The translations under genes and the position numbers were made by a program. Positions 8,945-40,400 of a DNA stretch of 40,400 nucleotides are shown here, piece by piece. The notes beneath the pieces were generated by a model, which searched no databases, was not told the origin of the DNA, and saw only the letters and a list, made by a program, of their open reading frames with translations. How positions within the stretch are numbered: the stretch's first letter is position 1; each line of letters opens with the position of its first letter. The DNA comes from Spirochaetota bacterium. GTDB taxonomy: Bacteria > Spirochaetota > Brevinematia > Brevinematales > Brevinemataceae. The stretch is from positions 1 through 40,400 of the forward strand of contig JAGUQW010000005.1 of NCBI GenBank assembly GCA_030154445.1. Reading direction: 5' to 3'.

Positions 8945-9769
8945 TTACTTGTTACGGAAAGGAAAACCAAAATGAGTTAATAAACTTTTTGCTTCCTGAT
9001 CCGTTTTAGCTGTAGTAACAATAGTAATATCCATTCCACGAACTTTATCAATTTTATCATAATTGATTTCAGGGAAGATAATTTGCTCAGATACTCCGAA
9101 AGAGAAATTTCCTCTTCCATCAAAACCTGTAGCTTTAACACCACGGAAATCTCTTACACGTGGAATCGCAACAGAAATCAACTTATCAAGAAAATCAAAC
9201 ATACGATTTTTACGTAATGTTACCTTTGCACCGATAGCCATTCCTTCACGCAACTTAAAATTAGATACAGATTTACGCGCAATGGTTTTCATTGCTTTTT
9301 GAGCAGCTAATAAAGTAAGATCATTTGTTGCAGCATCTGCCACTTTTTTATCAGATACAGCAGCACCTACACCCATATTGATAACAATTTTTTCAATACG
9401 AGGAATAGCCATAACTGATTTATAGTTAAACTCTTTATGTAAATTTGATTTAATCTCATTTTCAAAAAGTATTTTAAAACGAGGTTGATAACCAGATTTA
9501 ACAAGAGCTTTCCCTTTAGTTTTTAGAGCTATTTTTTTAGTAGGAGATTTTATTTCACTTTTTGGAGTAACTTCTACACCTTCAGTTTTTGAAGCAACTT
9601 TTTTAGTAGGAGCTTTCGCTTCAACTTTTGAAACAACTTCTACCCCTTCAGTTTTTGGAGTAATTACTTCTTTTTCAGTTTTTTCTACTTTTTTAACAGT
9701 AGTTTTTTTAGCAGTTACTTTTTTTTCTACAGTTTCTGCCGCAGCAGTTGTTTCTTTTTTCTCAGCCAT
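8945..9769 (-). CDS. rplE: 50S ribosomal protein L5 with long basic N-terminal extension
   Basis: L5 binds 5S rRNA and forms a bridge to S13. The family core occupies about residues 93-274 ([62 protein letters not shown]) and is of normal size. It is preceded by about 92 residues rich in Lys, Thr, Val, Glu and Ala, including two 22-residue repeats of the form KTEGVEV..K.E.K.PTKK. The ATG at 9769 begins the extension (MAEKKETT) and lies 11 bases after rplX. No alternative Met with a ribosome-binding site near the core is obvious. Confidence 0.96.
9524..9655 (-). repeat. Two 66-bp tandem repeats encoding 22-residue units in L5
   Basis: Residues 39-60 and 61-82 of L5 are two copies of a unit KTEGVEV-x2-K-x-E-x-K-x-PTKK-x3. 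The DNA period is 66 bases; for example the string TTTTTTAGTAGGAG recurs 66 bases apart on the plus strand. The protein repeat is conserved better than the intervening DNA. Confidence 0.8.
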
Positions 9770-39111: not shown

Positions 39112-39142
39112 ATCAGTATATTTGATGTTAGCAGGGCAATTT

Positions 39143-39814
39143 ATGATTAATTATATCAAAAAAATCATTATTAATCAACATTGTATTTCTTGTAAATCCA
39201 AAGATACAGAGCCATACTACCATATCTGTCCAAAGTGTATTGATTCATTGACAGTAATGAAAACGTTGAAAAATATTTGTCCTTTGTGTCATAGCACTTG
39301 GATAGAAAAAGATATTTGTCAAAATTGTTTTAACAAATCACCGCTTTGGCAGAATATACATACTATATATTCTTATAAAAACAATCATATCAAACAATTA
39401 TTGCATCTATACAAATTCAAAGATTCATCTTTAGCAGAACATGATCTTGTTGCATTAATAAAACCACATATATCGCTTTTTAAAGATTATCATTTTATTA
39501 TCACTCCTTGTAGTATTCCAACATACAAACGATTAGGCTATAATCCTGTAACAAGAATTATACAAAAATTAGATCTTGAATTTTCAGAATCATTATCTAA
39601 AAACCAAACATTTACAACCAAACATTTAAAAAGACAAGAAAGATTGCAACCAACAGCTGCAATGATATTTCAAGCTGAAAAAATAAATACTGCTAAAAAA
39701 ATTGTAATTGTAGATGATGTGTTCACTACAGGTTCTACGATTACTCAGGCGTCACTAGCTTTACAATACCATAATCTTATGTATTTTGACATTTTATGTT
39801 TTTTTAGAAGCTAA
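39143..39814 (+). CDS. ComF-family phosphoribosyltransferase-like protein
   Basis: A 223-aa protein. The N-terminal zinc ribbon has CISC...CPKC and CPLC...CQNC pairs. The C-terminal phosphoribosyltransferase domain has the PRPP-binding loop IVIVDDVFTTGSTITQA and RLGYNPVTRI. ComF proteins act in DNA uptake in naturally competent bacteria (assisting the ComFA helicase), but the family is also widespread in species not known to be competent. The ATG at 39143 has AGGG six bases upstream; a TTG frame start at 39122 is less likely. Confidence 0.88.
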   Translation: MINYIKKIIINQHCISCKSKDTEPYYHICPKCIDSLTVMKTLKNICPLCHSTWIEKDICQNCFNKSPLWQNIHTIYSYKNNHIKQLLHLYKFKDSSLAEHDLVALIKPHISLFKDYHFIITPCSIPTYKRLGYNPVTRIIQKLDLEFSESLSKNQTFTTKHLKRQERLQPTAAMIFQAEKINTAKKIVIVDDVFTTGSTITQASLALQYHNLMYFDILCFFRS

Positions 39815-39899: not shown

Positions 39900-40400
39900 A
39901 TGGATTTTAACAAAATATTTGATACTTATTCTAACGATATTGATACTCCCAAGCGCTCTAATGAATTTGCAGAAATTCCTCCTATGCCTGCAAATATTTT
40001 ACAAAAAGTAAAAACATTTATTCAAAATTTTGATAGTAACAAAGAGCCCGATAATTCTGTAGATGATATTACAACAAATACTGACCCTATCACAGAAGAA
40101 ACCTCTGCTTCAAGTGTTCCAGATAATATTTTGGATGTTCTTACTCAACTAGACAAACCTCTTGATCTTTCCTTTGATAATCCTCCTGAGGATATCAATA
40201 CAGAAAATTCTATTGACGATGACTCTGACTTCGATAATCCTCTTGACAATGATAACTCTGACTTCGATAATCCTCTCGATAATGATGACACCGACTTCGA
40301 TAATCCTCTCGATAATGATGACACCGACTTCGATAATCCTCTTGACAATGATAACTCTGACTTCGATAATCCTCTCGATAATGATGACACCGACTTCGAT
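39900..40400 (+). CDS. Asp-rich repeat protein, C-terminus outside window
   Basis: An ORF open from the ATG at 39900 to the window end (167 codons). It starts MDFNKIFDTYSNDIDTPKRS, with no signal peptide and no recognised domain. Composition is dominated by Asp, Asn, Pro, Ser and Thr. The last third is a tandem repeat of the 11-residue unit DFDNPLDND-(N/D)-(S/T). Spacing to any ribosome-binding site is poor (TAGG 13 bases upstream), so the start is less certain than the frame. The frame is supported by strict maintenance of the 11-residue unit. Function is unknown. Confidence 0.65.
   Translation, partial: MDFNKIFDTYSNDIDTPKRSNEFAEIPPMPANILQKVKTFIQNFDSNKEPDNSVDDITTNTDPITEETSASSVPDNILDVLTQLDKPLDLSFDNPPEDINTENSIDDDSDFDNPLDNDNSDFDNPLDNDDTDFDNPLDNDDTDFDNPLDNDNSDFDNPLDNDDTDFD
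40227..40400 (+). repeat. 33-bp tandem repeats in the Asp-rich protein gene
   Basis: Units begin at 40227, 40260, 40293, 40326, 40359 and 40392 (the last cut by the window end). Two sequence types alternate as A-B-B-A-B: type A carries CTTGACAATGATAACTCT and type B carries CTCGATAATGATGACACC in the second half. Units of the same type are identical, a sign of recent duplication. The array may continue beyond the window. Confidence 0.93.

Follow-up and report, generated by a model that had tools for sequence, protein, structure and literature searches.

The window analyzed here, a 40,400-bp stretch that is the whole of contig C5 (JAGUQW010000005.1) from the genome assembly of a Brevinema species (GCA_030154445.1; 1.499 Mb in 18 contigs), stops at position 40400 because the contig stops there, within a tandem array of aspartate-rich coding units. 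Which protein carries this array, why does the sequence break inside it, and what might such repeats do in that protein? We conclude, with a probability of about 0.55 for the explanation as a whole, that the array belongs to flcA, the gene for the spirochaetal flagellar collar protein FlcA, that the gene was broken there during assembly, and that the acidic tail in which the array lies is most likely a flexible cytoplasmic arm.

A recently duplicated coding array at the contig end

An earlier note, made from the letters of the window alone, had described an aspartate-rich 33-bp array of two unit types in the order A-B-B-A-B, with identical copies within each type, and had taken the duplication to be recent. 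Both the description and the dating were borne out. Tandem Repeats Finder (TRF) reported the array with a period of 33 bp (score, 282) and also with a period of 99 bp (97% match; score, 352). Five complete 33-bp units, starting at 40227, 40260, 40293, 40326, and 40359 (span, 40227-40391), are followed by a partial unit from 40392; the unit peptide is DFDNPLDND-xx, and unit comparison showed that 33 of 33 bases are the same within each type. The TRF score of 352 was reached by none of 1,000 codon shuffles of the open reading frame (ORF), the highest of which scored 81. Likewise, none of 5,000 synonymous recodings of the same peptide, drawn from the codons of the ORF, came up to the nucleotide identity seen in the array (0.909, against a mean of 0.80 and a maximum of 0.885), and we therefore conclude that the duplication took place at the DNA level, beyond what the peptide accounts for, and that the copies are recent. 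The array is coding and lies inside the ORF that begins at 39900. Judged by its residues, the peptide LSFDNPPED (Table 1) may have been the seed from which the repeat unit arose.

The gene resumes on a second contig

A fully degenerate pattern for the unit matched ten sites in the genome, divided equally between the ends of contigs C5 and C9, and nowhere else; a pattern in which the TTT and GAT codons were held fixed gave no match in the genome search. Because the array resumes at the end of C9, the five units in the window are a floor set by the assembly. Read inwards, C9 carries an open frame of 855 codons that encodes further units, then an acidic stretch, one membrane helix, and tetratricopeptide repeats (TPRs); an lpxB-like gene comes next, its 183 bits falling slightly short of the cut-off of 190. 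The C terminus and the anchor that the earlier note had sought beyond the window are thus supplied by this contig.

An exact match of either 97 or 31 bp links the ends of C5 and C9, so that two joins can be made within the tandem array; the 97-bp join gives 8 units and a protein of 990 residues and the 31-bp join gives 10 units and 1,012 residues. At five other contig-end pairs of the same genome the overlap is 141 bp, which suggests that the assembler used a word of 141, and further repeat-bearing pairs overlap by 126, 88, 61, 55, and 22 bp (all <141). Since exact repeats never exceed 116 bases in either join, a word of 141 should, coverage permitting, have resolved both, and the true array is therefore probably longer than either join or mixed in the sample.

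Because the C5/C9 overlap of 97 or 31 bp differs from the 141 bp seen at the five other pairs, the assembly alone is no proof of the join, and the two ends might belong to two different genes or paralogues brought together artefactually. We regard this as highly improbable, given that a single 1,089-amino-acid (aa) ORF of the nearest congener (G001) covers both halves, matching the N-terminal part from the window with 59% identity (E value, 3e-24) and the C9 part with 74%, that the unit pattern is absent elsewhere in the genome, and that the genome holds a single strong FlcA match. In addition, the N-terminal part from the window found matches in three other genomes of the family (21 searched, this one included), and in two of the three it shares an ORF with the FlcA C-terminal part.

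The split gene very probably encodes FlcA

The NCBIfam model NF047371 (FlcA_CTERM; periplasmic flagellar collar protein FlcA) matched the C9 part with an E value of 2.3e-74 and 251 to 252 bits over positions 4-626 of 646. The second-best match in the genome reached only 26 bits, and FlcA is therefore present as a single strong copy. In the other genus of the family the same model scored 466 bits, above its curated cut-off of 300 bits. Because TPRs give matches in 11 of 14 control genomes at E ≤ 0.001, we searched with a threshold of E ≤ 1e-20, at which 49 of 60 genomes (this one included) and 0 of 14 controls had a match; 13 of the 60 were over the 300-bit cut-off. The FlcA layout was confirmed by a membrane helix, visible as a hydropathy peak, followed by TPRs that were recognized by Pfam matches over cut-off and that form a superhelix in the model of the G001 protein. 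A search by sequence against solved structures returned TPR matches only, all weak (best E value, 0.0011) and mostly to designed or engineered TPR proteins. A comF-like gene stands directly before flcA (Table 1). Of 13 loci that were searched, 11 have a comF hit upstream of flcA and the remaining two begin inside flcA; the 13 include two regions taken twice (L106/L108 and L041/L109). FliL and MotB are also encoded in this genome, both over cut-off. We therefore consider the gene very probably to be flcA, a call that is based on the near full-length match, the single strong copy, and synteny, and not on the cut-off.

In Borrelia burgdorferi, FlcA is BB0326, a protein of the collar on the inner membrane whose TPR part, at the C terminus, fits an S-shaped density in the periplasm (PMC8609358, PMC11750108), and contacts of FlcA with FliL and MotB have been reported there (PMC11750108). 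The spirochaetal flagellar collar is treated in these papers and in PMC13023049. Tandem repeats in FlcA were not found in titles and abstract openings on FlcA, BB0326, or the collar, a coverage that lies mostly outside subscription papers. The array is a frame-keeping coding repeat in an acidic tail, of a general kind already known, in a host protein for which we found no such report.

Layout of the protein and its acidic tail

From its N terminus, FlcA consists of a conserved segment, a second short motif, a long acidic disordered tail that carries the array, a small helical domain, a membrane helix, and the TPR superhelix. The form of Motif 1 (Table 1) fits 17 of 17 N termini in the class alignment, read by eye, a fit that is not independent, as the starts of these sequences were chosen with a pattern for the first residues; the region was predicted with low confidence to form a helix (residues 3-19) in the G001 congener. 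The pattern of Motif 2 is present in 12 of the 17 class sequences and missed in 5. Folded without an alignment, the window ORF had a mean predicted local distance difference test score (pLDDT) of 53 and was predicted to be disordered, with helices at residues 31-45 and 76-82, the latter at Motif 2. The model of the G001 congener, built from 14 sequences, had a pLDDT of mostly <50 at residues 44-407 (10-residue means of about 24 to 55 over residues 41-400), a four-helix domain at residues 412-472 (pLDDT, about 70 to 80), a long helix at residues 494-554 that contains the membrane segment, and a TPR part with a pLDDT of mostly >85. Aspartate and glutamate make up 29% of the C9 part before the membrane helix versus 10% after it. 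The acidic, disordered domain postulated from the window is thus found, its disorder as a prediction from the low pLDDT of both models. Because the TPR part has been published as periplasmic, basic residues precede the membrane helix in the C9 part, and no signal peptide was seen by eye in the window ORF or the C9 part, the tail before the membrane helix is most likely cytoplasmic.

Table 1. Positions in the window of the flcA features discussed and of the neighboring gene
Feature	Position	Strand	Description
comF-like gene	39122..39814	+	Directly upstream of flcA; TIGR00201 match with E 4e-16, below the cut-off of that model
5' part of flcA, 167 aa	39900..40400	+	ORF open at its 3' end, where the contig stops; covers the conserved N-terminal segment, Motif 2, and the start of the acidic tail
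Motif 1, N-terminal segment MDFNKIFDTYSN	39900..39935	+	Class-wide form M-x(1,2)-[FYI]-x-x-[ILF]-x-x-x-[LY]-[GS]-[KNH]
Motif 2, VPDNILDVLTQLD	40116..40154	+	In many members of the order, a hydrophobic stretch followed by LD.PPPSL.EL
LSFDNPPED	40167..40193	+	FDNP core, from sequence inspection
33-bp coding tandem array	40218..40400	+	Five full DFDNPLDND-xx units (A-B-B-A-B) and a partial one; reaches the contig end

Arrays recur in the tails of FlcA homologues

Among 37 homologues, arrays with a TRF score of ≥50 were found in the tail of 18 and in the TPR part of 4, and arrays with a score of ≥100 were found in the tail of 13 and in the TPR part of none, mostly with sequences other than the unit described here. 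All 13 strong tail arrays have periods of 15 to 114 bp, each a multiple of 3, and in each case the observed score was reached by 0 of 100 codon shuffles. Two of the 37 (G021 and G050) had no NF047371 match at the search threshold and are probably not FlcA; neither belongs to the 13, and without them 35 homologues are left with the same 13 arrays. For the present genome (G000) and a second species of the genus (G002), the tail was measured only for the half on the C-terminal part, the tail of G020 is truncated at a late methionine, and the tail of one homologue reads largely N. The strongest array was that of Brachyspira pilosicoli (72 bp; 8.6 copies; score, 902), whose FlcA scored 430 bits.

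The nearest congener (G001) has no comparable array, its weak TRF score of 50 being reached by 14 of 100 shuffles. In G002, comF and the N-terminal part are followed by a dissimilar 57-bp array in which the contig ends, and the C-terminal part begins another contig inside the same 57-bp array. A further FlcA frame, on a Spirochaetia bacterium contig (L122; CAMRBQ010000005.1), starts at the contig end in a VLDTDD array. Arrays in the FlcA tail thus account for breaks of flcA in the present assembly, in that of G002, and on the Spirochaetia contig. Because the array of G002 is dissimilar yet stands at the corresponding place, it is the site rather than the sequence that recurs within the genus, and a comparison of the sequences indicates that the repeat gets replaced while the acidic tail stays. 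The variable copy number that had been expected from the window holds only in the form of differences between species, the arrays of two congeners being unlike; the comparison covered one genome per species.

What the tail might do

We tentatively propose, at somewhat less than even odds, that the tail is a flexible acidic cytoplasmic arm between the conserved N-terminal segment and the membrane anchor. Such an arm would keep a binding segment at its N terminus clear of the membrane anchor, near the stators, and it would present repeated acidic-hydrophobic contact points. Tandem duplication would change the length of the arm with the frame intact, so that the number of repeats could set its length or its valency; both the function of the arm and these effects of copy number are what we infer from the layout. 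What began as an anonymous repeat at the edge of a contig becomes in this way a testable question about the motor, namely, that of a stator-contacting collar protein with a long tail that has repeatedly gained tandem repeats.

The FlcA of B. burgdorferi resembles the protein described here in its TPR part, which is homologous by the NCBIfam model, and in the long stretch that precedes its periplasmic domain (the C terminus was taken as aa 360-931 [PMC8609358]). It differs in that the recent 33-bp array belongs to the Brevinema tail, tail repeats not being described in the consulted parts of PMC8609358 and PMC11750108. By analogy, the closest counterpart of the array would be found in HubP, a polar landmark protein with acidic repeats. 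HubP and FimV are polar scaffold proteins of the inner membrane whose cytoplasmic region is long and acidic; in HubP this region is largely unstructured and carries imperfect acidic repeats that vary in number and composition between close species, whereas FimV has no apparent repeats (PMC12918733). An acidic, repeat-bearing region is present in the FlcA tail too, but the TPR part of FlcA is periplasmic and its tail is N-terminal. Pfam searches of the window ORF and the C9 part (E ≤ 1) recovered neither the periplasmic LysM-like domain nor the C-terminal cytoplasmic FimV domain, and the likeness to HubP/FimV is one of working principle only. The Legionella fimV homologue LPG1299 also combines an in-frame coding array with a motility-related scaffold gene, and strain groups differ in its average number of copies (PMC2639597). 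It belongs to another protein family and phylum, and strain variation is known there, whereas the differences seen here are between species.

An extension of the arm proposal, which we think unlikely though worth stating, is a HubP-like spirochaetal recruiting arm whose acidic-hydrophobic motifs would bind a cytoplasmic motor partner, with duplication acting as a dial on length or valency that would tune the collar and the stators and with arms of this kind having arisen anew, with different repeats, in several lineages. A serious and strong rival to any such role, possible though short of probable, is neutral turnover, under which all that the tail requires is length, disorder, and negative charge; arrays produced by replication slippage or unequal recombination would then drift in number and give way to others, and the one described here would have no function of its own. 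In favor of this rival, two species of the genus have unlike arrays and the nearest congener has a degenerate one or none. Its strength comes from the frequency of coding arrays at the breaks of this assembly: of the 30 contig ends that could be read, at least 12 fall in such arrays (counted by eye, with the two flcA ends included), ten of these being acidic and one standing before translation initiation factor IF-2. Two observations speak for more than turnover, although selection on composition alone could explain both: the strong arrays are restricted to the tail, with none in the TPR part of the same genes, and hydrophobic residues in the tails are spaced nonrandomly. In 20 tails (one per labelled genus [19] and one unlabelled, the present tail being outside the set), spacings of 1 and 2 were avoided (z scores, -9.1 and -7.2) and a spacing of 3 was favored (z score, 4.4), values that are inflated by tandem copies left uncollapsed. 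The motif [DE]L..[LI][LM] was enriched in the tails (19 versus 2.0 expected), a motif that was chosen after the tails had been viewed and that the unit DFDNPLDND does not fit.

These two reservations weigh against our explanation of the locus, as do several other points. The 300-bit cut-off of NF047371 is missed by all three genomes of the genus (252, 272, and 284 bits). The 37 homologues are not independent, several being from one genus, and because the arrays of G026, G049, and Brachyspira have a similar unit, not every array is a separate invention. Two of the 13 strong arrays are not acidic (EVKPQ in G017 and a proline-rich unit in G041). Other genes of this genome carry similar arrays, which point to a general tendency of the genome to duplicate. 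A function of the tail is not described in the consulted parts of PMC8609358 and PMC11750108, and Legionella arrays of a similar kind were unchanged over three months of passage (PMC2639597).

Two further readings were rejected. The earlier note had suggested a possibly metal-binding domain, considered here for calcium or another cation, and the unit is indeed dense in aspartate with a D-x-D-x-D/N spacing; this was not supported and is very unlikely, as Pfam gave no domain for the window ORF at E ≤ 1, the aspartate spacing is lost in the arrays of other homologues (by eye), and the tail is predicted to lie on the calcium-poor cytoplasmic side, free calcium being scarce in the cytoplasm. Surface-exposed repeats for antigenic variation would suit a recent change in the repeats and a genus that is host associated. 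That reading is scarcely credible for a tail that precedes the membrane helix, in a protein in which no signal peptide was seen by eye and whose Borrelia counterpart belongs to an inner-membrane collar, with its TPR part in the periplasm (PMC8609358, PMC11750108).

Other repeats in the window and the genome

At the opposite edge of the window, where a second repeat tract had been pointed out, a DNA methylase ORF (1-1593, + strand; Pfam N6_N4_Mtase E value of 2e-40 and an Mrr_cat match) includes a CAAC tetranucleotide tract (19-108) within its open frame, at the 5' end. CAAC-type tracts occur within phase-variable methylases. A second CAAC tract is found at the end of contig C17 (22510-22593), and the sequence downstream of it is very similar to that in the window. 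A CAGA tetranucleotide tract at the end of C4 and the start of C11 (L136 and L137) continues on C11, without a change of frame, into an ORF that matches NTP_transferase (Pfam E value, 9e-10), which suggests a phase-variable sugar-nucleotide gene.

Other in-frame coding arrays lie at the contig ends C11/C9, C6/C7, C12/C7, C15/C3, and C12/C3 (L124 to L133). Their units are DYGEEASYEEEVDA, GGDEGYEE, EEEVEDDLEELVI, an aspartate-rich unit with ILDEVTVDD, and NRPNSGGQGGY, the last before IF-2; the five scanned array proteins other than IF-2 (L125, L126, L128, L129, and L131) had no Pfam match at E ≤ 0.001. Within the window, a 66-bp tandem repeat at 9513-9657 (2.2 copies; 81% match) is contained in a minus-strand ORF at 8945-9769.
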